Assembly: GCA_951799425.1 (NCBI GenBank)
Contig: OX637402.1
Location: 32,458,492-32,522,491, forward strand
From: Ilex aquifolium
Taxonomy: Eukaryota > Streptophyta > Magnoliopsida > Aquifoliales > Aquifoliaceae
DNA: 64,000 bases
Direction of reading: 5' to 3'
Part shown: in pieces, positions 6,321 to 35,357 of the stretch
Layout of the letters: every line of letters starts with the position of its first letter
Position numbering within the stretch: the stretch's first letter is position 1
Program-made: the position numbers and the translations under genes
Notes under the pieces: generated by a model
Database searches by the model: none
Told to the model about the DNA's origin: nothing
What the model saw: only the letters and a program-made list of their open reading frames with translations

Positions 6321-7128
6321 TCTATATAATAAAGTAGCTTACAATTCAAATCTCAAAAGATAAACAAAATGACTTTTGCTATTCACGGTTGAGATCACTT
6401 TAAATTTTACTTTAAAATTAATCTAACGGCTAATATTAACACCCTAAATTTAATAGGAAAAATAGGTCCTTAAGGGTGTGTTTAGAGTGACTTTTTAAAA
6501 ATACTTCTAGAAATTATTTTTCATAAGTATTTAAAAAAAAATAATTAGTGTTTGAAACCGCCCCACCACCGCCGCCGCCACCACCACCACCGCCGCCGCC
6601 GCCGCCGCCGCCACTGCCACCACCACTGCCACCATCACCACCACCACCACCACCACCACCGCCATCGCCATCGCCATCGCCATCGTCGCCACTAACACCA
6701 CCACCACCGCCGCCCCCACTACCACTATCGTCACTGCCACCACCACCACCACTGCCGCCGCCACCACCACCCTCACCGTCGCCATCGCCATCGTCGCCAC
6801 CACCACCACCATCGCCGCCACCACCACCACAGTCGTCGTCATCGTCGCCATCGCCGTCGCCACCACTGCCGCCGCCACCTATGCCATGGCCGTCGCCACC
6901 ACCATCGCTGCCATCGCCGCCACCACCACCACCATCACCATCGCCACCACGGTCATTGCCACCCACCATAACCATCACTGTCTTCTACCACCACCACCTC
7001 TCACCCCCACTACAATCGATACTTAAATTCATTTATCTCTCATCTATGTTTGTGATTTGATTTTGAATATGAATATAAATATGTTTATTTTTTATTACTA
7101 TGTGCCTTCAGGCACAGGCAATAACTAG
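6321..7128 (+). mobile_element. Non-autonomous Helitron, copy 1
   Basis: The element starts with TC (TCTATATAATAAAG) and ends with CTAG. The end is preceded by a 6-bp stem hairpin (TGTGCC, loop TTCA, GGCACA at 7101-7116) about 8 bases from the end. The base before it is A and the base after it is T, as expected for Helitron insertion between A and T. No target duplication and no terminal inverted repeats are present. A second copy at 32230-32816 has the same two ends and the same hairpin, which fixes the boundaries. There is no Rep/helicase coding sequence. The middle is filled by a long GCC/CCA-type trinucleotide repeat. Confidence 0.85.
6559..6976 (+). repeat. Trinucleotide repeat (CCA/CCG) inside the Helitron
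   Basis: About 420 bases of CCA, CCG, TCG and CAT triplets. They read as poly-proline on the plus strand and poly-glycine or valine on the minus strand. These open frames are due to repeat composition and are not genes. The matching region in the other Helitron copy is about half as long, so this block changes length. Confidence 0.9.
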
Positions 7129-8202: not shown

Positions 8203-9360
8203 CTATTTCCTGCAAGCAAGCAAATTTACAGATTCGAATAGAAAAGGATAAATGTTAGACATCAAGTAATCTTCCCCTGGCTCACCGTAGAACCACACTT
8301 GTGCCATTTTTTTGGTCTCAAAACTGTAAGAAACAATGGTTCCCGGTGGCAGCTCCAGATACAGTACCTGCAAGTCTTCATTAAACGCGCATGGTCGAAT
8401 TGAAGTCCAAGGCCACCCTGATTTCAATTCCACAACCATCACCACCCGCTCGAATCGCCACCTTAAATCGCAGTCCATGGATTCATGCTCAAAATCATCA
8501 TGATCATCATTGAATGCCCATATATAAAAGCCCTCATCAACTGGATCACAAAGATGTATACAACCTTCTGATTCCCACAAGAGTTGTGACAAGTACACAT
8601 TTGATCTTGTTCTTGTGGACTTGTTTTTGGGTAATCGAATGAGCTTGAAAAACTCTCTCTTGTCGTCATAAACCAACAAGCATAGGCTCCATATCCAGTA
8701 CAATCTTCCCCTGCTAAAAACAACAGACCCAAAACACTGTCCGTGGACAAAACCATCTTCGAGTAGAAGACCCGAGTACAAGATTCTTGCTTGATGTTCT
8801 GTCCATTCCCAGGTTTGCGATGAGAAAATCTGGCAGTTCATTGTACCAGACATAATATTAACTTCTTCCCAGAAGAAACAAATTACCCTAAACCGATCTT
8901 GGTCAATCCCATCAAAAGCAAGACTTGCACAGGCTGGTCTGGAGGTTTTGTGGGCAGGAGGGAGAGAAATATATTGATCAAGAACTGGGCTAGAGACGTG
9001 GTAGGTCCAAAAATCGCCATTTTTTCCGGCATATAGAAGCAAACCATTGCAAGAATCAATTAATTTTGGGAAGCTATGTTTGAAAGATGCATGGAGAGTG
9101 CAATCTTGGCCTTGGCTTTGGTCTTGGACCTTGATGAAGATTGATTCATGGAGAGTGGGGTTGTTGTTAATCTGTCTGAGGAAGATGACTAGGCTGGAGG
9201 TGGTGGTGGGTGGTTTGGAACGGCGAAGATCGGTGATGAAGTTGCACCAGGTCTTTGAGACGATCTTCAACTTTGTGAGAGACTTTATGTTGATGCGAGA
9301 GAAGATGGACTCTATAAGATGAGGATACAAATTCCCTAACTCAATCGTCTCTGCGTCCAT
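8203..9360 (-). CDS. F-box protein, F-box-associated type
   Basis: Single-exon reading frame of 385 residues. An F-box lies at about residues 8-50 ('NLYPHLIESIFSRI' then 'SLTKLKIVSKTWCNFI'), the motif that binds SKP1 in SCF ubiquitin ligases. The rest (about 60-385) has the spaced W, F and G residues of the plant F-box-associated beta-propeller-like region ('GLLLYAG', 'VSPVLDQYISLPP', 'ASLAFDGIDQDRFRVICFF'), which would hold the substrate. By family knowledge it acts as a substrate adaptor; the target cannot be told. The length fits the family (350-420). The start ATG is the first in frame and lies just after a CT microsatellite in the 5' leader. No frame damage is seen. The F-box family is large and fast evolving, so no orthologue is claimed. 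Confidence 0.88.
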   Translation of the reverse strand: MDAETIELGNLYPHLIESIFSRINIKSLTKLKIVSKTWCNFITDLRRSKPPTTTSSLVIFLRQINNNPTLHESIFIKVQDQSQGQDCTLHASFKHSFPKLIDSCNGLLLYAGKNGDFWTYHVSSPVLDQYISLPPAHKTSRPACASLAFDGIDQDRFRVICFFWEEVNIMSGTMNCQIFSSQTWEWTEHQARILYSGLLLEDGFVHGQCFGSVVFSRGRLYWIWSLCLLVYDDKREFFKLIRLPKNKSTRTRSNVYLSQLLWESEGCIHLCDPVDEGFYIWAFNDDHDDFEHESMDCDLRWRFERVVMVVELKSGWPWTSIRPCAFNEDLQVLYLELPPGTIVSYSFETKKMAQVWFYGEPGEDYLMSNIYPFLFESVNLLACRK

Positions 9361-9361
9361 C

Positions 9362-9382
9362 CTCTCTCTCTCTCTCTCTCTC
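9362..9382. repeat. (CT)n microsatellite in the F-box gene leader
   Basis: About ten CT units start one base upstream of the F-box start codon. As read on the gene strand they are GA units directly preceding ATG. GA-rich leaders are common in plant genes and may bind GAGA-type factors; that role is inferred. Confidence 0.85.
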
Positions 9383-9556
9383 GAGTCTTTACTCTTTATC
9401 CTCCTACGGCAGTCGGCTGCGAGAAATATTGAACCGATAAAACTCGAGGTCGGTGCCTTGGACCTTAAGGAACACTAACACAGAGTCTATGGCGGCTAAA
9501 CCAAACCGACATTCTTTCCCTATGCCTACAAAGGAGAGAATAAAGTGAATAAAAGA

Positions 9557-13312: not shown

Positions 13313-14018
13313 TGATGGTGTAAATCTACGCGAATGAGCTATGGAACAGGATTATTTGATATGAACGATATGTGTAGAGCTAAGCACGGTGTCTGAGCTA
13401 TAAGGCTCGTGCTTGATAGAGCAGGTTAATGCTTCGGGGCTTGGGGGAATAGGAGGATAATAAGATTATAGTGGTTCACTGGCCTGAGCTCGGCTAGTCC
13501 ACTCTGCCACGGAGTCTCTGGCTCCTCTCTTTCTTATTTATCAAGTTGAACGTGTTACAGTAGGATATTCAGGGTATTAGAGTTTCTTCCTTTCTTTTGT
13601 GGTTCTCCCTCCCCCTTTATAGCCTCATGCTTACCTCTAATTCAAAATCATCTCCTTTATTGAGGGGATTGTGCCCTATCTTCATCTATAATCACGGAGT
13701 TACCTAAGCTTCCTATGGCTGGCTTGAAACGGCGAAATCTTTGCCTGTTCTCATGGGATCCTCTCCTTGGTTCTAGGAGAGGATCCTGGTTAGTTACGGG
13801 TCTCACGCCTTGGATCGGCTTGATTCCCATTACGACGGTATCTGCTGTTATCTCGCTGCCCTCTTGTCATTTCTCAGTTCGGGTCTTTAGCTGGGAGCCT
13901 TAAAACCCGGCTAGGTGAGCTCAGGCCATGGCTGGGTGAGCTCTGCCTATTATGCCTGAGCTTCTGAGCTGAGCTTACTTTCTAAGCTCGTGACTAAGGT
14001 TTATTTTAGGTATCATCA
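13313..14018 (-). repeat. 3' LTR of the Tat element
   Basis: This 706-bp copy has TGATG...CATCA ends. Relative to the 5' LTR it shows scattered transitions and a small change around 13735-13755. Because the antisense genes start about 660 bp further on the plus strand, this LTR also forms their upstream flank. Confidence 0.95.
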
Positions 14019-14032
14019 GTTGCCCCCTAGCT
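14019..14032 (-). promoter_or_regulatory. Polypurine tract of the Tat element
   Basis: On the minus strand the 14 bases are AGCTAGGGGGCAAC, directly abutting the 3' LTR. A purine run touching the 3' LTR is the expected primer site for plus-strand DNA synthesis in reverse transcription. Confidence 0.75.
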
Positions 14033-14682
14033 CTTGCTCTAAGCGGGCTTAGGTAAGGGCTGAACTGTTTCCCGGTCCGAGCTAGATCTGCACGTGGTCT
14101 CCTTTGGCTTCTCACGTGGCTGAAGGGTTTTGACGGTTTGCAGCAATCATGACTCTCCTCGATTCCCGCGCATGTCTCAGCCCACGTCTTTCAAGCTTTA
14201 AATACCCAAAACGGCTACCTGAACCGTTTCTTTACACTATTCATCTTCTCCTCTGTTTCTCTGAATTCCTTGCCTCTGCGAACTCGAGTCCCAGTCTTGA
14301 AGCTCTCTGTTCCTTGCCCAAAATCGGCCTTTCTGTGTTTGATTCGAAGGCTTCGCAGTGCTTCCCCTCTTGATTCGGTTCCGGATTTGTTGTTCGCTGC
14401 TCTTCCCCCTCTAGGTACGCTTTCCCTACCTTCTTTTAGACTTTTCCAACTCTGGACCCTCTGTGTTCTAGGTGGTTGCTGCGTTTTTGGGCCCATAGGT
14501 TCTTCTATTTCTGGTCTCGTGATTGTTGCCTGTCTCCCCTTCCCCATTTCGTGGACTGGAGTTCCATCGTGCACATACTCGCTGTTGGGAGTTACTGTGC
14601 TGACCCTAGGGTTATTAGAGAAAGTTTGAGTAGTGTTCCTCCTCTATACCGTTCCTTTAATCTTCCCTTTTCTTGCCCAAAT
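14033..14682 (+). promoter_or_regulatory. Likely promoter and leader of antisense gene A
   Basis: No convincing start codon is used here. A TATA-like TTTAAATAC lies at 14197-14205, followed by a CT-rich leader with small upstream ATGs. The leader could contain an additional intron (GT-AG signals exist), but none can be fixed without transcripts. Confidence 0.35.
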
Positions 14683-17350
14683 ATGTCTGTTTCTTCTGGT
14701 GCTACTCGTTCCTCTGTTTCCCTATTAGGGGATCGATCTGAGGACACCGATCTGGGGGATGTTGGCGATGAGATTGATAACTTTCCCGGTGTGGAGGCTG
14801 GAGAGGCCGAGGCTGGCACCGAGGAACCTCCCTCTACCTCTTCTCCCATGCCCCCCAGACCTGATAAATGCAAGGTTAAGGTGAGTGGAGTCGGGGTTGA
14901 AGAAAAGACCTCATATTTGGGGTCTGCCTTCAGGCATGCCGAGTCTGTGGGCTACAGTAGAGAGGCCCCTGGGTTAATGAGAGCTTATAAGGTTCGATAC
15001 AGTTTTCCTCTTGGGGTTGAACCCTGGTGTCCAGATAAATCCATCTACTATGTAGAGCAAGTACGCAATAGGGTTTGCTTCTTTCTTGCCGCCTTTGAGA
15101 ACGGTCTTCGCTTTCCTCTGCATCCCTTTATCAAGGCTGTTCTGCAACATTTCCATGTATGCCCTTCCCAGATTTCTCCCAACTTCTATGGCGTCATGGT
15201 TGGTCTCCTAGTCATCTTTAAGAAGCATAAACTCGGGGTTCCTAGCATTTCTCTGCTTATGGAGCTCTTCAATGTCAAACTGACCTCCGCTGAAGGTTTT
15301 CTGTATATTTCCAAGCGAACTAAAGTTAAGAAAATTATTACTGACCTCCCCTCTTCTCACAAGGCGTGGAAAAAGCATTTCTTTTACATTGGGGGTACCA
15401 ATTGGGAGTACAATCCTGCTGATAAGACAGATACTCTTGGTATCCCTACGGCTTGGACAGAACCAGAAAACTTGGGTGAGTCTTCACTTGAGTCGACTGA
15501 GCTCTGATCTGGAACTTATAGGCCTCTTGCCTTTCTCTTATTTGCACACTTTCTTCTTTTCAGGTGATCGTCCTGAGCTCAGCCGTGAAGATAAGAAGGT
15601 GCTAGTGAAGTTGGGGAAGATTAAGCCAGAGAGGTACGCCGACCTGATTGAGTCTCGAAATTTGGTGGAGCTAGGTCTGAGTCCTCCTGCGGTGACCCTA
15701 GCTATTCCATTATCTGTTTTAGGGGCTGAAGAAGGTAATTTCATTGTCACTTTCTTTCTCTTCCTTTTTCATTATCTTTCCTTCTCTTCCTCTTCTTTTT
15801 ACTACTCCTTGTTCTATTCAGACCTTCCAGGTCCTTCTACCATGAAGTTTACTCCAGATGAGGTTCAGGCTAAGGTTGAGGAACTGTTGAAAGGAGGCAG
15901 ATCTGGTAAGCGCAAGGCCCGGGTCAGCTCTGGGAGTGGTCCAAACACCCGGGCTAAAATCCCCAAATTGGAGGTGCCTTTAGCTCCCTTTGCTACCGAA
16001 GAACTGGTTCCCAATAAGGCACCGCCTTCTTCATCCGGCACCCCTCAAATTGCCGTTCCCCCTTCCCCTCCGGTGGCCTATCCTGGGTTGGTGTCTGCTC
16101 AAGTGGGAGATCAGGCTTCCCCTTCCTCTTCTGAGGTTGAGAAAGCTTTGGGAGTGATCCCTGATCTCCAACCCAGAAAGTTCTCATACACTGCTTCTGG
16201 GAAGATGGTTGAGAAAGAGGGAAAATCTGAGGGAGAAGACGAGGATTCTTTTTTTGACAACATGGATCTTGCTGTAGGAGCTCTTTCTTCTATTTTTTCT
16301 GAGTCTGATGTCCTGAAGGCTGCTTCTATGCCCCTTGAGGAGTCCATCTCTTCAGCTCTTCAGGGAGCAGCTGCTGTAAGTGCTAGCACTTTCCCCCCTT
16401 TACTTGTTTTTATTTCGTGGTCTGGCGCAATTTACTGAACTTTATATTCTCAGGCTGCCCTCCATGCGAAAGGTCTGCTGCACCGGGTTCGGTCTCAAGA
16501 GAGCTCTTTCAAGGTTCTGAAAACGTATAAGGTCAAGGTTTCTGAATTATCCCTTGAGAACGAAGGCCTCAAGGCTCAGAACGAAGACCTCAGGGCTCAG
16601 GTGGAGAGCCTCAAAGAGCAAACGGTGAAGCAAGCCTCCGACCTCAAACACACATTAACCGTCAAGGTCAGAGCTGAGGAAGGGGAAAAGAAAGCTCGAG
16701 ATGAGCTAAGGCTTGTTAAGGAGGACCTGCAGATTAAGGTTGAGGCATGGTCCAAAGCTAGCCAAGAGGTTTTCGATGCCAAGAAAGAGCTCAGCCAGGT
16801 CAATCAAGATTATCTCGCCCTCAACGAGGCTAACGGCAAGCTCTGCGAGGAGCTCGAGGAGCAGAAAGGTTTGGTCCAACAGAGGGACAAAGAGATTGCT
16901 GAGCTAAGAGATGAGGCCACCACATTGTGGGCTGCTGGATGGCTTGCCTTTAGGCGCAAGGCTGTCAAAGCTTTCCCTGACCTTGACTTCAATTTCTCTA
17001 TCCCCACCGAAGAAGAAATGGAAGAGTCTGTCTCTGATGATGAGGAGGATGTCTCGGTTCCCTCAGCTGCAGCCTTGAGTCAAGACATACCTGCCCCTGG
17101 GACCTCTGGAGCTCTTATCGTGCTTCCTAAGCCTCCAACGGTGACTCCTGAGCTCCTTGCTACAGATCCTGTTGTTCCTGTTTCTGCACCATTTTCAGTT
17201 GACTTGGTGACTGAAGCCCTTGCTCAAGATCCGGAATCAACGGAAGCAGGGACCCAAGGCATTTCTGGAAGCTCTTCCCTTGCTTTTGTTGCTGAGGGCT
17301 CATCTACTGAGCTGCGAGATCCTTCAATTACTCCCCCTCCAGAAACTTAG
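14683..17350 (+). CDS. Antisense gene A of the Tat element (PF04195-like, coiled coil)
   Basis: Proposed exons 14683-15475, 15564-15734, 15822-16375 and 16454-17350 give an unbroken 804-residue protein. All introns are GT-AG (donors GTGAGT, GTAATT, GTAAGT) and short (77-88 bp). Residues 1-60 are Ser-rich and acidic. About 110-265 resemble the plant domain Pfam calls 'putative gypsy type transposon' (PF04195): 'CFFLAAFENGLRFPLHPFIK', 'CPSQISPNFYG', 'AWKKHFFYIGG'. A basic patch near 345 ('GKRKARVSSG') could be a nuclear signal. About 520-655 form a long coiled coil, followed by an acidic segment ('MEESVSDDEEDVS'). It runs opposite to gag-pol, between pol and the 3' LTR. The start is the first ATG matching the conserved frame. 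The function of this family is unknown. A homologue follows at 18006. Confidence 0.72.
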
Positions 17351-18005
17351 GACTTTTTAGTTGTAATTTCTTTGTAATCTTCATCTTGTTTTTCTTTTGC
17401 TGGTTTAGCACATATATATCTTCGAATTTCGAACTGCTCACTTACTTGTTTTGCTTTATATGCGTTTTGCTTTGTATACTACTCCCTCTATTTTTCTGAA
17501 CTTTCTTCTGTGTTTTGAGAAGTACTTCAGCCCTTCTTCACGCAAGACTATGGATTTCATGAGTCGTTAAGTTCTTTTGATGAACTGGGGAGCCCATCAG
17601 GAGTTTTATCATTCTGATGTGGGCAAGGCTCTAGGAGCCGCAGGTCTGGGAGATCATTCTGAGGTGCAATGTTGCCAACCGAGCTGAGCTCCAGTATGAG
17701 GAATATTTTGGTGGGGTCAGAACTTTCTTCGGTCGTTTTGAGTGCGATAGGAGGGTTGATCTTGTGCTGATTCATTTTCCCGCCTTTTTCTTTTTAAACC
17801 GTTTTCCATAACCATAACCGCCTTTATTAATTAAGAAACCAAGAAGACAGCCGATTTCCTTTCGCATGTCTCTTGGTTTCCTAAAAACTTACAGCCTTCT
17901 TTTAGTTTCCTCCAACCTACTAAGTTTCTTTCTCCTTTGCCCAAAACACCTCTGAGTTTCTTCTTGGTTTTTCGTGGTTATCCTCCGCTTTTATCGTGCT
18001 TTTTG
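17351..18005. other. Spacer between the two antisense genes
   Basis: No gene is supported; the short minus-strand frame at 17557-17775 has no family resemblance. The left part is T-rich and probably carries the gene A 3' end. The right part has 'tttattaattaag' near 17822 and a CT-rich leader, suggesting a promoter for gene B. Confidence 0.35.
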
Positions 18006-19096
18006 ATGGCTGCCCCTACTTCTTCTCTGTTCCAGGAACGGACTTCCTTCGGGATCGAATGGAAGTGGCATCACCGCTATTTGTCAGCTTCGAACTTAAA
18101 CTCTTATGATCTGGAAATCATCAAGAAACGGTTCTTTCCTTATCTTGACTTGCCTTTGCGGGTTCCTACCGCGGACGAGCCCTGTAACTACCTTCCTCGA
18201 GGGGAAGTCTGCTTTTTCGAAGGTGCCATGGATATGGGACTTCGCCTTCCCATTCACCCTGTCATAGGGCGAGTTCTTGTCTACTATGGCCTATGCCCCT
18301 CTCGCCTTTCCCCACGAGGATGGGCTACTTTGGTGAGCTTCTTCCTGTTCTGGCGCCTACATGGCGTCGGTAGGTTCCCCTATGTCTCCGAGTTTCTGTA
18401 CTTCTTCGAGATAGTGGAAGATGATGCCCCCTGCTTCAGCTTCTTCCGTTGGAGGAATTTTAAATTACGCCCTTTGGTTCTAGGCTTTCCCCCCAATCCT
18501 GAAGGATGGTCTAAACGTTTCTTTTTTGCTTCCGGGGAGTCTTGGCGGTCTCCTGAGGATCGTTGTCGTGAGGCTAGGATTCCTCGGTCCTGGAAGAGCT
18601 TCTCTCGCATTAGTAAGTTTTAGCGAAGCTCTCTTGTGTATGTATTGTTCTTGAAGGTATATTCTTATTGCATTCTTGTTGCTCAGGTCCACCTGATGTG
18701 GATGTGCCAGAGAGGGTGACCATTGACCAGATGCTGCTGGTGGGGTCTAAGTCTTACTCTGAATTGATGACAAGTGCAAACCTCTACTTGCTAGGGGCCG
18801 AGGCTACTGAGTATGAGTTCTCCTTCGTTCCCTACTCTTCCTGGACTTCTTTTTCTGATTCTGACGAGGAAGATGATTCCGACGAGGAAGGGGACACTGG
18901 CGTGAGCTCAAAGAGGCGTATGAGGGATGACTCTTTTTCCCCTGACTCTCTGTCCACTATCTTCCTCTCCCCGGCAGGTCAGAAGCTTCTTGATTCACTT
19001 TATAAAGCTCAGCAAGAAAGAGACGAGTTGAAGGAAGAGAATGCTTGTCTGGAGGAGGAAGTGGCTGAGCTGAAGTCCCAGCTTAAGAAGGACTAG
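18006..19096 (+). CDS. Antisense gene B of the Tat element, shorter paralogue of gene A
   Basis: Exons 18006-18612 and 18687-19096, joined across a GTAAGT...CTCAG intron of 74 bp, encode 338 residues. The first exon holds the same kind of domain as gene A: 'CFFEGAMDMGLRLPIHPVIG', 'CPSRLSPRGWA', 'WSKRFFFASGESW'. These align with the gene A motifs in the same order and spacing. The second exon has an acidic stretch ('DSDEEDDSDEEGD'), a basic 'KRRMR' and a C-terminal heptad region ('ELKEENACLEEEVAELKSQ'), a short coiled coil. The intron interrupts the codon after its first base at the point that corresponds to gene A intron 1. ATG at 18006 is preferred over 17937 because the upstream residues look like leader. 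The role is unknown; possible partner of gene A product through the coiled coils (inference). Confidence 0.72.
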
Positions 19097-19292
19097 GAGC
19101 TCTTCCCCCTTGTACTTTCTTCTTTACTCGAGTGATGCCAAGCTATGACTTTCCTTATATTTTTCTGAACACTTGTACTGTTGGATACTCTGAATACCAG
19201 ATCTTTTATTTTTGAATATGCAATTCTTTATGAGCTGACGGGCTCGTTCCGAACTCTGTAAGGTTATTTTAGCACGCTCTTCGTGTTCAGAA

Positions 19293-19404
19293 CACGAACG
19301 TGGATGGAAAACAGAAGGTCATGTTTGCACTGCCCTTAGTTCCTCACTGATTCCACTGGTCGAACCACGAACATTGATGGAAAACAGAAGATCATGTTTG
19401 CACT
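19293..19404 (+). repeat. Two direct copies of a 39-bp motif, 73 bp apart
   Basis: Copies at 19293-19331 and 19366-19404 share 'gatggaaaacagaag', then 'tcatgtttgcact', differing at a few bases. They sit between the antisense genes and the 55-bp array. Confidence 0.8.
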
Positions 19405-19578
19405 AACCTCAATTCCCAACTTATTTCGTAGCTGATCCCTGCTGTATCAAATATATTGGGGTCTTCGAGTATGTAGGCAGTGCACAAGGACTACTAGTCG
19501 TGGAGGAAAGACTGTTGGTGTCTCCAAGAAGAGACCAGCTTTGAATTCTATGAGCTTAGAGGCTTGTTGCTTGTGTAC

Positions 19579-20073
19579 GGGCTGAAGGGCTCGTCTTGTG
19601 TTTTATAAGCTGAGGAGCTTATCGTTTATTTATGAGCTGAAAAGCTCATCTTGTATTTTATAAGCTTAGAAGTTTATCGTTTATTTATGAGCTGAAGAGC
19701 TCATCTTGTATTTTATAAGCTTAGAAGCTTATATTTTATTTATGAGCTGAAGAGCTCATCTTGTATTTTATAAGCTTAGAAGCTTATCGTTTATTTATGA
19801 GCTGAAGAGCTCATCTTGTATTTTATAAGCTTAGAAGTTTATCTTTTATTTATGAGCTGAAGAGCTCATCTTGTATTTTATAAGCTTAGAAGCTTATCGT
19901 TTATTTATGAGCTGAAGAGCTCATCTTGTATTTTATAAGATTAGAAGCTTATCTTTTATTTATGAGTTGAAGAGCTCATCTTGTATTTTATAAGCTTAGA
20001 AGCTTATCGTTTATTTATGAGCTGAAGAGCTCATCTTGTATTTTATAAGTTTAGAAGCTTATCGTTAGATGTA
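19579..20073. repeat. Nine-copy 55-bp tandem array with paired inverted repeats
   Basis: Units begin at 19579, 19634, 19689, 19744, 19799, 19854, 19909, 19964 and 20019, an exact 55-base period. Each unit contains TGAGCT-GAAG-AGCTCA and, 25 bases on, ATAAGCTT-AG-AAGCTTAT, two short perfect inverted repeats in most copies. The first unit is the most diverged and a single older-looking half motif is at 19231. It lies about 100 bases beyond the pol stop codon. An amplified tandem repeat here matches the description of Retand elements. Confidence 0.95.
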
Positions 20074-20170
20074 GAGCTTACTGCACATTCCTTTACTTTG
20101 GAAACCATATAAGGGTGAATAAGAGACTCGCTTATTCTTATTAAAACAGCTCTGCAACAAGTAACACTTA

Positions 20171-23100
20171 CTAAAAGAACTTCTTAAGGTGTTCGGCATT
20201 CCAAGAGTGTGGTAGGACCTTCCCCTCCTCTGTTTGCAACTCATAGTTCCCTGGTCTGATCACCCTTGATACGATATAGGGTCCTTCCCAGTTGGGTCCC
20301 AATTTCCCATGCGTGGGATCCTTCCTTGCAAGCAGAAGCCTCCTAAGTACCAAGTCTCCAGCCTTGAAACTTCTGTGCCTTACCTTCCTGTCGTAGTATC
20401 TTGCAGTTTTCCTTTGGTAAAGTCGGACACGATGCAGAGCTCTTTCTCTCTTTTCATCCAGGAGATCGAGGTTTAATAAGAGAGACTCATCATTGTGTTC
20501 GGCATCTGCAAATTCCACCCTTGGTGATTGGAGCCCCACCTCAACAGGGGCTACTGCTTCGGTCCCAAAGGCCAAAGCGAAGGGGGTTTCCTGAGTTGCT
20601 GACCTGACGGTGGTCCTGTAGGCCCACAATACCTCAGGGATGTACTCCACCCACTTGCCTTTTAGGTTTTCTAATTTAGTCTTCAGAGCTGTCTTTATGG
20701 TTCTGATTGTGACCTCTGCTTGCCCATTGGATTGAGGATGTGCAGGAGCTGAGAAATAGTTCTTTATCCCAAGCTCAGCACAGAAGCTCTTAAACTTTGA
20801 GTTGTCAAACTGCTTCCCATTGTCAGACACGACTGCTCTGGGAACCCCAAATCTGCAAACTATCGACTTCCAAACGAAGTTTTGGACTTTTTGTTCAGTG
20901 ATTGTTGCCAAAGGTTCGACCTCTGCCCATTTGGTGAAGTAATCCACCCCTATGATAGCAAACTTGCATTGCCCCACACCGGTGGGAAGGGGTCCAAGAA
21001 TATCCAAACCCCACTGCTGAAAGGGCCATGGGCTTACCACCGAGGTTAGTAGCTCGGGGGGACAATGGGAAACATTGGCATGTTCCTGGCAAGTCTTGCA
21101 TCTTTTTACTAAATCGGTGGCGTCTTTGAGCATGGTTGGCCAATAATATCCTTGTCTCAGTACTTTTCCTGCCAAGGCCCGAGCTCCTATGTGATTGCCA
21201 CATATCCCTTCATGTACTTCTCTGAGTATATAGTTGGCATCTTCATCCCCCACGCACTTAAGGAGAGGCGTTGAGAACCCCTGTTTGTACAGATTTCCTT
21301 GCAACAAGGAAAATCTGGCTGACATGGTCCTCAGCTTAGAAGCCTCATTGGCATCGCTTGGCAGAGTCCCACTCTGCAGGTACCCAATGACGGGGTCCAT
21401 CCAAATTGGCTGAGCTCCGATTGATAGTATGTCTTCTTCTTCGATACTTACTGAAGGCTCTGGAAGGTGCTCCACTGGTATTAGCCTATCCAAATCTTCT
21501 TGTGAGGCCGTTGCTAACCTCGCCAGTGCATCTGCTCGTGCATTCTCTGCTCTAGGCACGTGTCTGACCTTAACCTGCACAAATTTCTTTATTAATTCTC
21601 GTACCTTTCTGAGGTATAGAACCATCTTTTCGCCTCTCACTTCGTAGGAGTCCTCTATCTGCTTTACCATCAGTTGAGAGTCACTGCAGATCTCCAGCTG
21701 CTCTGCTTCCATAAAATACGCAAGATTGAGCCCAGCGATGACAGCTTCATATTCTACTTTGTTATTTGAAGCCTCGAACCCAAATCTAAGGGCATACTCG
21801 ACATCGATTCCTTCTGGGGAGGTCAAGATCATTCCTGCACCGCTTCCCTGAGCATTGGCAGCTCCATCTACTGAAAGTTTCCATATGGGGAGGTCTGGTA
21901 TTAAATCTGTGGTCTCCATAGGCGCCGCTGCTGTGAACTCTGCAATGAAATCCGCCAAAATTTGCCCTTTGATGGCAATTCTTTGCTTGTATCTGATGTC
22001 AAATTCACTGAGCTCTATGGCCCATTTAACCAACCTCCTCGAGGACTCTGGCTTATGTAGCACTTGCTTCATCGGCTGGTCTGTTGGAACCTCGATAGTA
22101 TGAGTCTGAAAATAGGGCCTGAGTCTTCTGGCTGTTGTCACCAGCGCTAAGACGAGCTTTTCCATCTTTGGATATCTCTCCTCTGCCCCCCTCAGAGCTC
22201 TGCTACAGTAGTAGACTGGTTGCTGAGCTCTGTCTCGCTCCCTAACCAGCGCTGCGCTTGTCGAAAAATCTGAAACCGCCAGGTAGAGAGTAAGGACCTC
22301 CCTTTCTAAAGGGCTCACCAGAACAGGAGGAGAGCTCATATAATATTTCAAGGCTTTAAATGCTTCTTCACACTTGGCATCCCACTGGAACACCTTTTTT
22401 AATATCTGAAAGAATGGCTGGCATTTATCACTTGATCTAGACACGAAACGGCTCAAGGCAGCAATCCTGCCTGTCAAGCGTTGTACCTCCCTTGTGTTGG
22501 ATGGTGATTGCATCTCCACCATTGCCCTAACCTTCTCCGGGTTGGCTTCAATTCCTCGGCTGCTAACTATAAAACCCAGAAATTTCCCTGCCGAGACCCC
22601 AAATGCGCATTTTGCAGGGTTGAGCTTCATTTTGTACTCCTTCAGGATCTGGAATGACTCGGCTAGGTGCGCGATGTGGAGCTCTGCCTTTAGTGACTTT
22701 ACCAACATGTCATCGATGTAGACCTCCATGGATGCTCCTATTTGTTTTTGGAACATCCTATTCACTAATCGCTGGTAAGTGGCTCCAGCATTCTTTAATC
22801 CAAAAGGCATGACCTGATAGCAATATGTTCCTTGTTCAGTTACAAAAGAGGTCTTCTCTTGGTCATTGGGATCCATCCTAATCTGGTTGTAGCCTGAGAA
22901 GGCGTCCATGAAGCTAAGCAGCTCGTGTCCGGCAGTGGCATCTACTATTAGGTCGATCCGAGGTAGGGGAAAACTATCTTTGGGGCATGCTCGGTTGAGA
23001 TCAGTGAAGTCGATGCACAGTCGCCATTTGCCATTGGTTTTCTTGACGAGAACCACATTCGCCAACCAGGAAGGGTAGTCAACTTCCCTGATGGCCCTAG

Positions 23101-25282
23101 CATGGAGGAGTTTGATGACCTCCTCATTAATTGCCCTTTGCCTTTCGGAGGCAAAGCTCCTCCTCTTCTGTTTGACGGGCTTGCAAGTTGGGTTCACGCT
23201 TAGCTTATGGGTAATAACCGAAGGGTCAATTCCTTCCATGTCTTCTTGCTTCCAAGCAAACACTCCTATATTCTCCTTTAGGAACCGGATGAGGAGACTT
23301 TTGAGCTCAGCGTTCAGTCTGGAACCCACATAAACGAGGTGTTCCGGCTTCCCATCAAGCTGAATTGGTTCCAGCTCTTCTGAGGGCATTGGTCTTGTCT
23401 CCATTTCATCTCTCATGTCGAGTTCATCCAATTGGATGTTCTCGACCTCCTTCCTTTTTACAGAAGTCATGTAGCATTCTCTTGCTATGCGCTGGTCTCC
23501 TCTGACTACCCCAATTCCATTTTCTGTCGGGAATTTGACGACCAAGTGATAGGCAGATGAGATTGCCTTCATAGAATTAAGGGATGGCCTTCCAAGCAAG
23601 ATGTTATATGCAGAGGGCGCATCGACCACTAGGAATTTCACGGTTGTGGTGGCTTGGCAAGGTGGGTCCCCTAGGGTGAGCACGAGTTGGATTGAGCCCA
23701 GGGGGAGCACCCTTTCTCCGGAGAATCCCAGCAAGTGAGTGTTTACAGGTTCAAGTCTCTCCCTTCCTATGTCCATCTTGTCAAATGCAGGTGCGAAAAT
23801 GATATCTGTCGAGCTCCCGTTATCGATTAGAACCCGATGAACGGTTCTATTAGCTACCACAGCTCGCACCACCAATGGATCATCATGAGGGTACTGGCAT
23901 CCCTCCAAGTCAGCATCTGAAAAAGTGATAGTTGTATCTAAGTGTGGTGCTTTGGATACAGCGTGCACTTCGAGAGCTTCTTCGGCTCTAATCCGGCGGA
24001 GGTGTGCTTTCCTGGCTGAGCTAGATTCTCCACCTCCCGCGAACCCTCCAGATATCACTCTGATCTCACCTAGAGGTTGCTGATGTGGTGCAGGTGCCTG
24101 CTGTTGTGGTGGTGGAGGTGGAAGAGCTCGGTTCTGGTTGTCATGGGCTACGAAACGACGCAACTGACCTCGCTGGATTAAGAACTCGATTTCCTTTTTC
24201 AGTTGAATGCAGTCATCAGTGTGGTGACCATGATCTCTGTGGTAATCGCAGTACTTTGTGGGGTCTCTCTTGGCTGGATCTGCCTTCATTCGAGGTGGCC
24301 ATCTCAAGAACTTCTCGTTTTGGACCTCATACAGAACTTGTGACACAGCGGCAGTGAGTGGGGTGAATCGTTGAGGTCCGTATCTGGGCTGTAGGTCAGG
24401 CTGCATGGGACCCAGGCGATCTCTGACATTTCCTCTTCTCTTTGGTGAGCGGTCCCTATCCCTTCTTGGAGACCTCTCTCGCCCTTTCTCCTTCCTGGGA
24501 CTCCTGTCCCTTCTCTTTTCTTCTTTTTCCTTCTCCTTTCGTGAGGATGTACCCCCTACTTTGGAAAGGAGTGCCTCTTCACCATTTATATACTTCTCTG
24601 CCTTGGCTAACACCTCAGCCATGCTTGCCTGAGGGTTCTTCGATATGGAGAACATTAGATCCTTTGATTGCACTCCCAACCCTGCAATAAAGGCAGTTAT
24701 GGCGAATTTTTCGTCTGGAACGTCTACTTTTAGTGTCTCCGAGTTGAACCTTTGGACATAAGATCTCAGGTTTTCTTGGGGCCCCTGTTTCACGTTCAGT
24801 AGGTGGTAGCTCGGCTTTCTGTATATTCGGGCTCCTATAAAGTGAGATACGAAAGCTATGGAGAGCTCTTTAAAGGATGAGATCGAGGCTGGTGGGAGCC
24901 TGTGAAACCAAGCTAGGGCGGAGCCTTTCAGTGTGATGGCAAAAGCTCTGCAACGTACAGGATCCTGGTATCCATGCAGCTCCATCTGGTTCTTGTAAGT
25001 GTTGAGATAATCTACGGGATCTTTTGGTCCGTCAAAGACCTCTATTTGTGGCATCCTGAACTTTGGTGGGAGAGGAAAGTGCAACACTCCAGTGGTGAAT
25101 GGGGACTCGGTTTGTTGCACCAAGACGTCCATTGTAACCGGAGCCTTGCTCTTTACAGCCTCCTTCATGTGGCTGAGCTCTTGCTGGATATCTTTGAAGC
25201 GTTGCTCCCAGTGTTGATCCCTCCTGTCTTGCGGGTAAGGGAGAAAATCGTCCCTCTCACCCTCATGGTTCTGACTTTGCAC
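20171..25282 (-). CDS. Tat Ty3/gypsy gag-pol polyprotein (intact main frame)
   Basis: An uninterrupted frame of 1,703 codons. Domains in order: retrotransposon Gag capsid (about 75-240, 'GSALAWFHRLPP'), zinc-knuckle-like region (about 343-362), aspartic protease with catalytic D487 in DNGSS, reverse transcriptase with YIDD at about 855-858, first RNase H (about 990-1110), second archaeal-type RNase H with its first catalytic Asp in 'LSVDGAAN' at about 1139, integrase with HHCC zinc domain (about 1355-1410) and the DDE core (Asp near 1432, 'SDNGKQF', Glu in 'SNGQAE'). The protein ends right after the usual 'HSWNAEHLKKFF', without a chromodomain. The reported frame begins at a GTG, not an ATG, because the true N terminus lies upstream and is damaged (next entry). 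Products would act in the cytoplasmic particle and in chromosomal integration. Confidence 0.93.
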   Translation of the reverse strand: MQSQNHEGERDDFLPYPQDRRDQHWEQRFKDIQQELSHMKEAVKSKAPVTMDVLVQQTESPFTTGVLHFPLPPKFRMPQIEVFDGPKDPVDYLNTYKNQMELHGYQDPVRCRAFAITLKGSALAWFHRLPPASISSFKELSIAFVSHFIGARIYRKPSYHLLNVKQGPQENLRSYVQRFNSETLKVDVPDEKFAITAFIAGLGVQSKDLMFSISKNPQASMAEVLAKAEKYINGEEALLSKVGGTSSRKEKEKEEKRRDRSPRKEKGRERSPRRDRDRSPKRRGNVRDRLGPMQPDLQPRYGPQRFTPLTAAVSQVLYEVQNEKFLRWPPRMKADPAKRDPTKYCDYHRDHGHHTDDCIQLKKEIEFLIQRGQLRRFVAHDNQNRALPPPPPQQQAPAPHQQPLGEIRVISGGFAGGGESSSARKAHLRRIRAEEALEVHAVSKAPHLDTTITFSDADLEGCQYPHDDPLVVRAVVANRTVHRVLIDNGSSTDIIFAPAFDKMDIGRERLEPVNTHLLGFSGERVLPLGSIQLVLTLGDPPCQATTTVKFLVVDAPSAYNILLGRPSLNSMKAISSAYHLVVKFPTENGIGVVRGDQRIARECYMTSVKRKEVENIQLDELDMRDEMETRPMPSEELEPIQLDGKPEHLVYVGSRLNAELKSLLIRFLKENIGVFAWKQEDMEGIDPSVITHKLSVNPTCKPVKQKRRSFASERQRAINEEVIKLLHARAIREVDYPSWLANVVLVKKTNGKWRLCIDFTDLNRACPKDSFPLPRIDLIVDATAGHELLSFMDAFSGYNQIRMDPNDQEKTSFVTEQGTYCYQVMPFGLKNAGATYQRLVNRMFQKQIGASMEVYIDDMLVKSLKAELHIAHLAESFQILKEYKMKLNPAKCAFGVSAGKFLGFIVSSRGIEANPEKVRAMVEMQSPSNTREVQRLTGRIAALSRFVSRSSDKCQPFFQILKKVFQWDAKCEEAFKALKYYMSSPPVLVSPLEREVLTLYLAVSDFSTSAALVRERDRAQQPVYYCSRALRGAEERYPKMEKLVLALVTTARRLRPYFQTHTIEVPTDQPMKQVLHKPESSRRLVKWAIELSEFDIRYKQRIAIKGQILADFIAEFTAAAPMETTDLIPDLPIWKLSVDGAANAQGSGAGMILTSPEGIDVEYALRFGFEASNNKVEYEAVIAGLNLAYFMEAEQLEICSDSQLMVKQIEDSYEVRGEKMVLYLRKVRELIKKFVQVKVRHVPRAENARADALARLATASQEDLDRLIPVEHLPEPSVSIEEEDILSIGAQPIWMDPVIGYLQSGTLPSDANEASKLRTMSARFSLLQGNLYKQGFSTPLLKCVGDEDANYILREVHEGICGNHIGARALAGKVLRQGYYWPTMLKDATDLVKRCKTCQEHANVSHCPPELLTSVVSPWPFQQWGLDILGPLPTGVGQCKFAIIGVDYFTKWAEVEPLATITEQKVQNFVWKSIVCRFGVPRAVVSDNGKQFDNSKFKSFCAELGIKNYFSAPAHPQSNGQAEVTIRTIKTALKTKLENLKGKWVEYIPEVLWAYRTTVRSATQETPFALAFGTEAVAPVEVGLQSPRVEFADAEHNDESLLLNLDLLDEKRERALHRVRLYQRKTARYYDRKVRHRSFKAGDLVLRRLLLARKDPTHGKLGPNWEGPYIVSRVIRPGNYELQTEEGKVLPHSWNAEHLKKFF

Positions 25283-25620
25283 TTCTTCGTTGTGGCCATT
25301 CCTAGGGGGTAGGTAATGAGCATGCCCCCTGGTCTGGCTGCTTTCTCCTCCTTCGTTGACCTCTCTAAAGGGTCCCAGTGTCGTTGTTTCCTATGGGGGG
25401 GATTATTCTGGCCTTCTTGGGTCGGTCGTGCCTCCTGTGGGCGTTGTATGAGCTTTGATAGCTCTGCATTTTCCCTTAACAAGCGTTGGTTGACTAGGCG
25501 AAGGGCCTCCATCTCGTTATTAATGGGGGAATTTGCCTATTGTATGTTCCCGGGTTGTCTGCCGTTGGTAGCTTCCTGCTGATCTTGCATTTGTGGTAAG
25601 TTCGTTTGACTTCTGCTCAT
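25283..25620 (-). pseudogene. Damaged N terminus of gag
   Basis: The likely original start is the ATG at 25620 ('MSRSQTNLPQMQDQQEA'). In that frame a TAG stop occurs at 25537-25539. Downstream, the frame holding 'MEALRLVNQRLLRENAELSK' stays open to 25165 but is one frame away from gag-pol, which itself meets a TAG near 25395 when followed upstream. So at least one nonsense change and one single-base frame change lie between 25290 and 25540. The copy therefore cannot make full-length Gag without suppression or re-initiation. Confidence 0.75.
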
Positions 25621-25680
25621 ATTTCGAGTTGTTACCATCAGTCACTGAGAAATCAGCTTATTTGTAAATAGGAACAGTCG

Positions 25681-25701
25681 TTCCCACAGACGACACCAAA
25701 C
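25681..25701 (-). promoter_or_regulatory. Primer binding site region of the Tat element
   Basis: Directly inside the 5' LTR the minus strand reads GTTTGGTGTCGTCTGTGGGA. Its TTGGTG(T)CGTCTGTGGGA core is the form seen in many plant Ty3/gypsy elements. I could not match it with confidence to one tRNA 3' end. Confidence 0.55.
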
Positions 25702-26406
25702 TGATGGTGTAAATCTACGCGAATGAGCTATGGAACAGGATTATTTGATATGAACGATCTGTGTAGAGCTAAGAACGGTGTCTGAGCTACAAGGCTCGTG
25801 CTTGATAGAGCAGGTTAATGCTTCGGGGCCTGGGGGAATAGGAGGATAACAAGATTATAGTGGTTCACCGGCCTGAGCTCGGCTAGTCCACTCTGCCACA
25901 GAGTCTCTGGCTCCTCTCTTTCTTATTTATCAAGTTGAACATGTTACAGTAGGATATTCAGGGTATTAGAGTTTCTTCCTTTCTTTTGTGGTTCTCCCTC
26001 CCCCTTTATAGCCTCATGCTTACCTCTAATTCAAAATCATCTCCTTTATTGAGGGGATTGTGCCCTATCTTCATCTATAATCTCGGAGTTACCTAAGCTT
26101 CCTATGACTGGCTTCAAACGGCGAGATCTTTGTCGTTATCATGGGATCCTCTCCTTGGTTCTAGGAGAGGATCCTGGTTAGTTACGGGTTTCACGGCTTG
26201 GATCGGTTTGATTCCCATTACGACGGTATCTGCTGTTATCTCGCTGCCCTCTTGTCATTTCTCAGTTCGGGTCTTTAGTTGGGAGCCTTAATACCCGGCT
26301 AGGTGAGCTCAGGCCATGGCTGGGTGAGCTCTGCCTATTATGCCTGAGCTCCTGAGCTGAGCTTACTTTCTAAGCTCGTGACTAAGGTTTATTTTAGGTA
26401 TCATCA
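25702..26406 (-). repeat. 5' LTR of the Tat element
   Basis: This 705-bp copy has TGATG...CATCA ends and is the promoter copy for the element. On the minus strand it contains CTATAAAG at 26004-26011 in a 'gaggctataaagggggagg' context, a good TATA box. Genomic RNA would start roughly 25-30 bases further, near 25975. Confidence 0.93.
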
Positions 26407-28628: not shown

Positions 28629-29501
28629 ATGGCAATGACTGGTGAAAACGAGGACATCAAAATTCCAGGCTCTTTGGGTTATCACTCTCTTGAAACCCTA
28701 GATCGTGGTTGTCATCTTCCACAGCAAGACCAGCTGATTCAACAACAGTCACCGCGAAGTTCAAACCCAGAAAGGTTCTCAGGCGCTGGAGTCATCAGTA
28801 CCGGTGCAACAAGTGCACCAATTTCCGGCCGATCTGAATCAAAAACACCATCCAGAGCGCCATCGAAGTATCGAGAATGCCTCAAGAACCACGCGGCAAG
28901 CACAGGTGGGAAAGTCACCGACGGCTGTGGAGAGTTCATGCCGGGCGGCGTGGAAGGAACGCTAGAAGCTTTGAAGTGCGACGCTTGTAACTGCCACCGC
29001 AACTTCCACCGTAAAGTAATCAACAACGACGCCGTTTTGGTGCATCCACTTCAGCTGACTCCACCATTGCCACCTCCATCAGTTAACCACCATAGGACAA
29101 TATCAATGTGTACGCAAAGTAACCACTGGACTTCCATTGTTCAACCTGTGAAAATGGCGTTTGGGTTTGGTGCTGGAAGTGTAGCTACAGACTCATCAAG
29201 TGAACAAGAGTTCAATTTCAACCCGTTTCAGCCCAATTCAGTGGCGCCGCCGCCACCACCACCGTCTGTTACGGCGAAGAAGCGGGTTCGGACAAAGTTT
29301 ACTAGGGAGCAAAAAGATAAGATGTTGGAGTTTGCAGAGAAGGTGGGGTGGAGGATTCCCAAGGAAGATGATCCTGCAGTCCAGAGGTTTTGTGCTGAAT
29401 TTGGGTTGAAGAGACAGGTTCTCAAGGTTTGGATGCACAACAACAAGAATTCCGTAAAGAAACAGCCGCAAGAACCATTGGAGTCAAATGCAGCTGAATG
29501 A
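28629..29501 (+). CDS. ZF-HD homeodomain transcription factor
   Basis: Intronless 290-residue protein. The ZF-HD dimerisation zinc finger is at about residues 80-130 ('YRECLKNHAA' ... 'DGCGEFMPGG' ... 'LKCDACNCHRNFHRK') with the expected Cys and His residues. A Pro-rich linker follows, then an atypical plant homeodomain at about 216-278 ('KKRVRTKFTREQKDKMLEFA' ... 'GLKRQVLKVWMHNNKNS'), whose helix 3 has the family's VWMHNNK in place of WFQN. Members form homo- and heterodimers and bind ATTA-core sites; many act in floral and leaf development. Lack of introns and the length fit the ZHD family. The ATG at 28629 is the first in frame after a purine-rich leader. No damage is seen. The exact ZHD subgroup cannot be assigned without a tree. 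Confidence 0.93.
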   Translation: MAMTGENEDIKIPGSLGYHSLETLDRGCHLPQQDQLIQQQSPRSSNPERFSGAGVISTGATSAPISGRSESKTPSRAPSKYRECLKNHAASTGGKVTDGCGEFMPGGVEGTLEALKCDACNCHRNFHRKVINNDAVLVHPLQLTPPLPPPSVNHHRTISMCTQSNHWTSIVQPVKMAFGFGAGSVATDSSSEQEFNFNPFQPNSVAPPPPPPSVTAKKRVRTKFTREQKDKMLEFAEKVGWRIPKEDDPAVQRFCAEFGLKRQVLKVWMHNNKNSVKKQPQEPLESNAAE

Positions 29502-33004: not shown

Positions 33005-35357
33005 CTAGTTAACATCTATACTGACTGAGCTCGAGTTCATGTCTGTAGTCCCAGCTTCATTCTGCTTCAAGCTCAATTCATTATCCTTCTTCGTGTTCTT
33101 GTACATGAGGTACAATGTCATTTGAGCAATTCCGCATAAAAATCCCAAGGCGTTTCGTAGCTGGTCGTTGAGTGACATAAGCCAACCAAAAAAGAAGAAA
33201 GATCAGCAAATATATAGACCACTGGAGAAAAAATACGGTACAGAATGGTCATATTTTGGTACTATATATACAAAATTATAATTATAGTCGGATAAATTTA
33301 AAACTCAGTCGGATGAAGTTACACTAAAAAAATATCGCTTTTTTGAATTGTCGCTTGACCCCGATAGAGTAGGTTTTTGAACTTAATCGAGTTATAACTA
33401 TATCCTATTAAGTCATAATTTTTAGTACATTACCCACATTTGGTACTGTGAGAGTGTGATGAGCTAAGGATATATGATTGAACGAATGCCATTATTTACT
33501 TACTTCAATGAAGAAATCCTTCATGAAAAATCCATAGAAGAACCACACGATGCCCATTAAAGTGATGGATAGTGAAAGAGTGAATGGCATGTACTCTACA
33601 CTTTTTGTTCTTATCACTTGTCTCTGCAGAAAAATAAAGAGCAAATGCTAAGAAAATTTATCCTTCATAATTATTAGTTCAACAATTAATTAATAAGCAA
33701 TTACTAACGAGATTAATTAATCGTGTATGTTTAAGAATTACCGCGATGCCAAGTGGGGCGGCAAATGCTAAAACGTTGATGACAGTAGTTATCCATCCTA
33801 CAACTATTACTCTCTTGTGGCCTTTTACGAGTAAGAGAGAGAACAGTACGATCACCCCAAAGCTTCCTACATTCAATAGGAGTATCAAACTCACTGTGGA
33901 AATCTGCAAAAACACCACTTGTTTAAGCCCTAGCATGAGAAAAAAGAAAAGAAATGAAATGAGAGAGAGAGAGAGAGAGAGAGAGAATTTTACCTTAGTT
34001 TTCTTAGGTGCATATATCACGTACATTAGAAGGTAAATTGCCTCTACAACAGATCCAATACCATTTAGGCTGACGATCATATACTCATTTTTCCTCAGAA
34101 AAGCATAAAGCAACATTAATTCTGCACTAAAGAGCGTTACTGAATAAGGTATTGATTGATACCCTTCTGATGATTTCCTCTTGTAAATCTTGCAAAAGGT
34201 CGGCCTGAGAGAGGGAGAGAAAGAGAGGAGCAATCATTTTAGTGTGAGAAAAATACTATTATTGTGGTTGTGGGTAGCCTTGTCAAAATCCGACACGATA
34301 CGATTAATTGACACAAATCGACATGAATTAAACGGGTTTAGGTAAGACTTTAACGGGTTCGGATGGTAAACGGGTTGTGTTCAGGTGAGTCATGCCAATC
34401 CATTTATCACTCGTTTACCCGTTTAAATAAAATTAATATAATAATAAAATTAATAATTATTTTAAAAAATTAGGCAGATTTTTTTTAGTGACAGTCACAT
34501 AAAAATATATATATTATTTTTAATGATAGCCACATAATTTTTTTTTTTAATTTAGTGACAACCACAAAAATATAATAATAAATTAAAACCACACGTGTTA
34601 AACGAGTCGTGTCGTGTTACCTGTTTATTAAACGGGTCGTGTATGAGTTTACATGTTTTTCACCCATCACCCGTTTAACTCGACACATAACCGTTTAACC
34701 CGACACGTTTAACACCCCTAATTGTGGGTCATGAAAATACTCCTGAGCAAAAATATATATAAAGCTTTTTGAAGTAAATGGGGCTTACAATGGCGCCAAG
34801 AGCACTGTGAATGCCACAACATTGCCTACGAACAAGTGGGAATCAAAGAAGATTCAGTTAGATATAGAAAAATATAAATCCTGTGGTTATAAAAATACAA
34901 TTTTACATAGCGTATGTAAAAACTTAAAGAGAGAGGCCATCATGACAATTCTTGGTAGAAAATCTAACACAATATTTCGCGGTACGAAACCTAAAAAACT
35001 TTTCAATGTCGTGTCAATTTTTTCAACCTTTTGCCCCATTCAAGATGAGGTCTTGGTCACAACATGATATACATCGAAGATAAAACACTTCATTACACAC
35101 ATGAATCTCTATTTCTACATGAAAATATTTTACAAGAGATTTAGATTTTTTCCATACAATTTCACCTATATATTAAAAAAAAATAACTTATATATAGCAA
35201 GTCTTATTTGAATCAATGACGAATAATCTATCATTTGAAGAAAAATGAAATAAAGAGGAGTAGAAGGGATCTAAATATATATTTAAGGACCAAAGTAATG
35301 GTTATTACCTAAGAGGCCGAAAATGGAAGCCAAGTTTTCATCGGTAAAGAGTGTCAT
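33005..35357 (-). CDS. SWEET sugar transporter (MtN3/saliva family)
   Basis: Six exons join in frame: 35309-35357, 34789-34825, 33994-34204, 33742-33903, 33504-33623, 33005-33160, giving 244 residues. All introns are GT-AG. The 37-base second exon is a hallmark of plant SWEET genes. Two MtN3 repeats of three membrane helices, joined by a linker helix, are visible: '[16 protein letters not shown]', '[20 protein letters not shown]', '[20 protein letters not shown]', then '[19 protein letters not shown]' and '[16 protein letters not shown]'. The PYS/MPF positions match the conserved proline tetrad. SWEETs carry sucrose or hexoses down the gradient across plasma or vacuole membranes. The wording 'APKKTK' suggests clade III (sucrose type), by inference. 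A hAT MITE lies in intron 2 and a GA repeat in intron 3. The C-terminal tail is short (about 30 residues). Confidence 0.92.
33961..33984. repeat. (GA)n microsatellite in SWEET intron 3
   Basis: About twelve GA units, ten bases inside the donor side of the intron between exons 3 and 4 (CT units as transcribed). Confidence 0.9.
34275..34720. mobile_element. hAT-type MITE in SWEET intron 2
   Basis: The ends are TAGCCTTGTC on the left and TAGGGGTGTT when the right end is reversed, flanked by GTTGTGGG (34267-34274) and ATTGTGGG (34721-34728), an 8-bp target duplication with one mismatch. Internal arms carry many inverted copies of 'taaacgggt' and 'cgacacg' motifs. The element accounts for three quarters of the intron. 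Splice sites of the gene are not affected. Confidence 0.7.

Follow-up and report, generated by a model that had tools for sequence, protein, structure and literature searches.

Antisense open reading frames (ORFs) with a TRP28 domain (Pfam PF04195) have been described as a characteristic of Retand long terminal repeat (LTR) retrotransposons, present in 97% of the clusters surveyed (Vicient 2025, PMC11963269), and another study reported an antisense PF04195 ORF in 23% of Retand elements (PMC6317226). The former survey, in which ORFs were predicted without splicing and mostly with a cut-off of 600 bp, listed 104 antisense ORFs from 63 clusters, 57 of them with TRP28, and treated DNA binding by TRP28 as a prediction (PMC11963269). 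Regarding gene23 of the maize element Grande, a nuclear location, a promoter of its own, and antisense transcription have been reported, as has weak expression for Retand (PMC7264820). In the present study, we analyzed a stretch of 64,000 nucleotides (nt) of Ilex aquifolium (assembly GCA_951799425.1, contig OX637402.1, positions 32,458,492 to 32,522,491), called the window below, in which a Ty3/gypsy element of the Retand type (Tat) is present in complete form on the minus strand at 13313-26406. Its plus strand holds two intron-containing TRP28 genes, and we consider it probable, though well short of assured, that they form an antisense accessory cassette whose products are nuclear proteins regulating the element. 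Comparison with other copies in the same genome reveals the structure of these predicted genes, purifying selection on their exons, their paralogy, and an intron that they share.

The element resembles the Retand elements of the survey in its antisense PF04195 ORFs, its tandem repeats beside pol, its LTR and internal lengths, its long region between pol and the 3' LTR (6152 bp here, 2933-6556 bp there), and its one-frame gag-pol, which is found in most eudicot clusters of that work; it differs in its conserved introns and its two TRP28 paralogues (PMC11963269). The word "intron" is absent from the main text of the survey, and in the text consulted we found no mention of a TRP28 pair (PMC11963269). 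Among the titles and abstract openings listed, there was no mention of introns in TRP28 genes or of two TRP28 paralogues per element, and priority is uncertain. One antisense TRP28 gene per element is known, and the pair with its shared intron looks like a less described variant. Grande gene23 has in common with the present genes an antisense position between pol and the 3' LTR, an internal promoter of its own, and a nuclear product; however, a single gene was described, and the likeness drawn here is one of description (PMC7264820). ORF4 of the Silene Retand element is likewise an antisense ORF with the PF04195 domain (PMC7264820). HBZ of HTLV-1 and APH-2 of HTLV-2, antisense nuclear regulatory proteins of retroelements (cited in PMC11963269), serve as a working analogy from an unrelated lineage, for which sequence homology is not claimed.

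Gene models and selection on their exons

Both genes lie on the plus strand between the end of the gag-pol frame (20171) and the 3' LTR (14018). Gene 1 has four exons and encodes 804 amino acids (aa) without an internal stop. Exon 1 (14683-15475) carries the TRP28 domain at residues 131-198 and is followed by intron 1 (15476-15563), which is in phase 1 and homologous in position to the intron of gene 2; exon 2 (15564-15734) and intron 2 (15735-15821, 87 nt) lead to exon 3 (15822-16375), a linker with a basic KRKAR segment, and, after intron 3 (16376-16453), exon 4 (16454-17350) encodes a coiled coil, with a heptad run at residues 591-660, and then an acidic stretch before the stop. Gene 2, of 338 aa, begins with the ATG at 18006 and has two exons separated by a phase 1 intron (18613-18686): exon 1 (18006-18612) with TRP28 at residues 68-136, and exon 2 (18687-19096) with an acidic stretch, a basic KRR, a C-terminal coiled coil, and the stop. 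The PF04195 (Transposase_28) profile matched the two proteins with 32.9 and 35.6 bits (E 7.6e-8 and 1.1e-8) against a curated cut-off of 26.2, and the plan of TRP28, charged linker, and coiled coil is common to both. The original prediction, made from the letters of this stretch, had described two multi-exon plus-strand frames of 804 and 338 residues between pol and the 3' LTR with the frame restored at each junction, coiled coils with acidic and basic segments, and a possible relation to PF04195; the exon models bear out the frames, both proteins contain the predicted segments, and the Pfam search that it had proposed places both above the cut-off.

The codon comparison covered nine copies beside that of the window (L069-L075, L001, and L002), seven of which (L069-L075) contributed gene 2. 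Exon queries recovered the same exon order in divergent copies. The median pairwise ratio of nonsynonymous to synonymous divergence (dN/dS) for exons 1-4 of gene 1 was 0.133 (10 sequences, 45 pairs), 0.220 (9 sequences, 36 pairs), 0.266 (10 sequences, 45 pairs), and 0.237 (10 sequences, 45 pairs), and that for the two exons of gene 2 was 0.137 and 0.157 (8 sequences and 28 pairs each). These medians take in all pairs, including those with the window, except for three saturated pairs and pairs with dS of 0.02 or less; the pairs are non-independent, stop codons were skipped, and dN is biased somewhat downwards by the choice of copies according to protein or domain score. The highest values for single pairs were 1.45 in the short exon 2 of gene 1 and 0.89 in exon 1 of gene 2. 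The comparison between copies that the original prediction had proposed as a check thus yields a non-neutral pattern, with medians of 0.13-0.27.

A control on the reading frame was performed with four copies (L069, L071, L073, and L075) and all exons but exon 2 of gene 1 (five in total). In the true frame, dN/dS was 0.09-0.43, against 0.71-2.88 in the other two forward frames. In the reverse frame whose third positions coincide with those of the true one, it was 0.10-0.44, as a mirror image predicts; this reverse frame contained 5-12 stop-bearing codon positions, and the true frame none, except for one in exon 4 of L071. Most differences fell at third codon positions in all six exons. These results support the view that both frames are real coding genes kept by purifying selection, which would then be visible on two paralogues within one element. 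Chance open frames were rejected on the basis of this frame-specific constraint, and the nested insertion of an unrelated gene was rejected considering that the same layout occurs in many copies.

Splice sites were compared at 44 loci for gene 1 and 36 for gene 2 beside the window's own, which was excluded from the counts, as were L076-L078; loci without a usable gap numbered one for intron 1 (L075), two for intron 2 (L037 and L075), two for intron 3 (L025 and L037), and one for the intron of gene 2 (L058). GT and AG were both intact in 40/43, 41/42, and 37/42 copies for introns 1-3 of gene 1 and in 33/35 for the intron of gene 2, or in 151 of the 162 comparisons, and some donor or acceptor exceptions may be alignment offsets (L010 and L011). 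In the same order of introns, the gap, which varied in length, was not a multiple of three in 39/43, 16/42, 18/42, and 32/35 copies, and in-frame readthrough met a stop in 41/43, 7/42, 34/42, and 32/35. Intron 2 of gene 1 is the weakest case because its gaps in other copies break the frame or bear a stop least often; in the window it is open in frame within an ORF at 15284-16438, and its removal there therefore rests on the other copies. All three introns of gene 1 are kept in L001-L008, which are only 62-65% identical to the window in exon 1 and are mostly near-copies of one another. The idea that antisense introns can persist in a retroelement, also part of the original prediction, agrees with their retention in divergent copies; they would persist because the RNA that is reverse transcribed is that of the other strand, on which they are not introns. 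Transcription and splicing of both genes in vivo are suggested by these conserved structures. These TRP28 genes would be fragmented or cut short in a survey by ORF prediction alone, and the spliced models correct their protein models.

Copy L069 showed a 705-aa open frame around exon 1 of gene 1 (in the gene 1 region from base 201), though the exons of this copy are still separated by 90, 72, and 82 nt; retained introns might be partly readable there.

Paralogy, the shared intron, and a mosaic copy

The first exons of gene 1 and gene 2 are 29% identical and end at residues 264 and 202, respectively, which are aligned with each other, and both are followed by a phase 1 intron. A third type of copy (L076 and L078) also has a GT-AG intron sequence at the homologous place; it apparently has one TRP28 gene, although a second gene may lie further out since the stretches available are short (5001 and 3501 bases). 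In L076, this gene adjoins the end of a pol frame on the opposite strand. In an unrooted tree of 13 exons, gene 1 (6 rows), gene 2 (5 rows), and the single-gene type (2 rows) occupied separate branches with support of 100/99, 98/99, and 100/99. Gene 1 and gene 2 are, as judged from these alignments, old paralogues, in agreement with the duplicated antisense module that had been proposed. Since the position and phase of the intron are common to gene 1, gene 2, and the third type, the intron appears older than the duplication, and most simply the duplication would in turn have preceded the divergence of the two-gene families under comparison. As a marker of how old a retroelement gene is and what history it has had, the shared intron is unusual. 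Downstream of the antisense TRP28 gene of the third type, a coiled-coil-like frame was also observed.

The two genes recur together. At least 63 of the 145 scored gene 1 matches are followed at 2.5-6.5 kb (median 3508) by a scored gene 2 match on their own strand; 0.05 would be expected by chance, and no such match lay within that range on the opposite strand or upstream. This number is a lower bound because scoring covered the best candidates only, namely, 145 of 8174 for gene 1 and 150 of 7070 for gene 2. In addition, gene 2 was located downstream in 5/5 copies fetched by gene 1 coordinates alone (L069-L072 and L077, an extension of L004), a count from which L073-L075 were kept out because they had been chosen for matches in both lists.

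Regarding L075 (5101 bases), gene 1 is 67% identical to that of the window in exon 1 and 50-55% in the introns; past the gene 1 stop, identity is 84, 87, and 80% in three parts of the spacer and 88% in exon 1 of gene 2. The first exons of five other copies are 84-88% (gene 1) and 81-88% (gene 2) identical to those of the window. Between L075 and the window, dS is 2.86, which is near saturation, in exon 1 of gene 1 and 0.37 in exon 1 of gene 2. The simplest reading is that L075 is a mosaic generated by template switching near the gene 1 stop, possibly long ago.

Proposed function and its alternatives

The conserved domains, paralogues, and candidate sites described here make the long-standing question of TRP28 function testable. 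A nuclear regulatory role of both proteins is our best guess, from their common plan, the nuclear location reported for Grande gene23, and the DNA binding that has been predicted for TRP28. The original prediction had likewise suggested nuclear products, associated with chromatin or RNA, that may act in trans and as a partner pair. According to our explanation, both genes would descend from a single intron-containing TRP28 gene, the duplication having taken place earlier than the separation of the two-gene families studied. Each gene would be transcribed towards pol from a promoter inside the element, that of gene 1 being a putative TATA-type promoter approximately 180 bp inward of the 3' LTR. 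A TATA-like box at 14197-14203 on the plus strand, within the element and outside the LTR, is the candidate; a similar motif is located 482-492 nt 5' of the gene 1 ATG in 36/37 other copies, many of which are near-copies (486 nt in the window). Both transcripts would be spliced by the host machinery and translated into proteins that begin with TRP28, continue as a charged linker, and end in a coiled coil. These proteins would probably dimerize through the coil and enter the nucleus, and there they may control the element; binding to its LTR or repeat array, for instance, may tune the transcription of the sense strand or one of the replication steps that take place in the nucleus.

As for a site that such proteins may recognize, GAGCT/AGCTC occurs 13 and 14 times in the two LTRs, where dinucleotide shuffles give 2.8 and 2.6 (approximately five-fold), 6-9 times against 1.0-1.7 in the LTR parts of L001-L004, and 25 times against 4.9 in the 55-bp tandem repeat array at 19431-20121 that separates gene 2 from the end of pol, the last count being inflated by repetition. 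The motif was picked post hoc and the LTRs compared are related to each other. The lead is also weakened by enrichment in gag-pol (43 against 15.5, approximately 2.8-fold) and in gene 1 (30 against 5.0 in simple shuffles), and we regard GAGCT/AGCTC as a candidate binding site, no more. A bolder version of the proposal, which we find rather unlikely, is a two-protein antisense regulatory circuit, in which anciently duplicated and differently diverging TRP28 factors would act as coiled-coil dimers reading a GAGCT-type motif clustered in the LTR and the tandem array; the cassette would consist of intron-containing genes that could act only as mRNA and never as the genome, and template switching could exchange gene 1 between families and leave gene 2 in place.

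Several observations weigh against the favored explanation. When close copies were compared with one another (four exons, 29-30 copies each), mean dN / mean dS was 0.30-0.76, which indicates weaker constraint. This is expected if insertions decay, because most of them would do so after landing while selection acts on the transposing lineage, but it also fits a relaxed function. Some copies (L071, L072, and L074) contain stops, and in L075 the exon query did not recover exon 2 of gene 1. A TATA-like box was not evident for gene 2 in the two upstream stretches inspected. Structure predictions for the TRP28 exons from two-row alignments had pLDDT of 40 and 44 and were unusable, and the best match in a search of solved structures had an E value of 0.28 and was not meaningful; DNA binding is therefore without structural support. 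The joining in L075 of a divergent gene 1 to a window-like gene 2 is mild evidence against close co-adaptation of the two products.

The alternative to which we give the most weight, although we still regard it as doubtful, is that the proteins help in structure or replication, for example as cofactors of the particle, of import, or of integration, and do not regulate transcription. A scaffold would fit the long coiled coil and charged tails, conservation at the level of the element suits any role in replication, and a role in the pre-integration complex has been raised (PMC7264820); we favor regulation because an opposite-strand location that is not coupled to gag-pol seems better suited to a separate regulatory program. 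That the antisense transcript works as RNA, by forming double strands with genomic RNA or through small-RNA control, with the frames being incidental, appears improbable. The layout does predict overlapping transcription of the two strands, and antisense RNA control of LTR elements has been discussed (PMC7264820 and PMC12786077), but a role as RNA alone would leave the reading frame unprotected, in contrast to the low frame-specific dN/dS, the excess of third-position differences, and the kept splice sites; the transcript may have an RNA role in addition.

The existence of a family with apparently one TRP28 gene (L076 and L078) raises the question of whether only one gene is needed, the second being a leftover duplicate. 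This notion, which is compatible with the other readings, receives little credence from us in view of the strong constraint on both genes in the copies compared and the presence of gene 2 in all five copies fetched through gene 1. Least probable of all, and by a wide measure improbable, is a captured host gene kept for the benefit of the host or as neutral cargo. Host genes usually have introns, and these would survive if genomic DNA were inserted in antisense orientation; nevertheless, constraint is visible between divergent repeated copies, and the genome contains 5837 PF04195 candidates, the best 150 of which were scored and were all above the cut-off, and therefore the element, not the host, would be the unit. 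In addition, the survey reports that TRP28 has no similarity outside transposable elements (PMC11963269). Even so, the genes may ultimately have come from a host. Taken together, we continue to favor nuclear proteins that regulate the element.

A search for relatives in viral contigs yielded 181 pattern matches, none of which was confirmed.

The host element and its surroundings

The element is bounded by a 3' LTR at 13313-14018 (minus strand, 706 nt) and a 5' LTR at 25702-26406 (minus strand, 705 nt), with a 5-bp target site duplication, GGTTT, on either flank. A purine-rich minus-strand run at 14019-14034, immediately preceding the 3' LTR, is a candidate polypurine tract. The LTRs are identical at 685 of 705 aligned positions, with 13 transitions and 7 transversions (K80 distance 0.029), which corresponds to an insertion age of approximately 1.1-2.2 million years at substitution rates of 1.3e-8 and 6.5e-9. 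The gag-pol frame, 20171-25390 from stop to stop on the minus strand, is a single uninterrupted frame of 1739 codons with gag, reverse transcriptase, RNase H (RT_RNaseH, 1034-1130), a second RNase H (RVT_3, 1174-1292), and integrase (Integrase_H2C2, 1386-1437).

The extra RNase H, located after the first one and before integrase, has been reported at that place for both Ogre and Retand (PMC6317226) and assigns the element to Tat, as had been proposed, and the antisense PF04195 frames between pol and the 3' LTR point to Retand. The original prediction that Tat/Retand elements may carry an antisense ORF holds for Retand, but was understated inasmuch as the survey calls TRP28 ORFs characteristic of that lineage (PMC11963269). 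The lengths of the LTRs, of the internal region (11683 nt), and of the region between pol and the 3' LTR, together with the 5-bp duplication, are all within the published Retand range. Regarding PF10536, the plant mobile domain reported in 57% of Ogre elements (PMC6317226), no match was found in the proteins P1 and P2 or in gag-pol at E of 1 or less, nor in 13 TRP28 exons at E of 10 or less, where the filters of HMMER drop most weak matches. No link between the TRP28 genes and the plant mobile domain was thus seen in these searches.

The element appears to have inserted into gene-containing DNA because it is surrounded by frames of host genes, of the F-box (8203-9474, minus strand), ZF-HD (28629-29501, plus strand), SWEET (MtN3; 33679-34233, minus strand), PPR (50937-51989, plus strand), and Tubby (56427-56885, minus strand) types. 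Elsewhere in the window, a 672-codon frame without a Pfam match at 53963-55981 (plus strand) is rich in Thr, Pro, and Ser over residues 1-250 and coincides with a stretch of strong GC skew, and a low-complexity proline-rich frame at 6545-7060 (plus strand) is built from short codon repeats.

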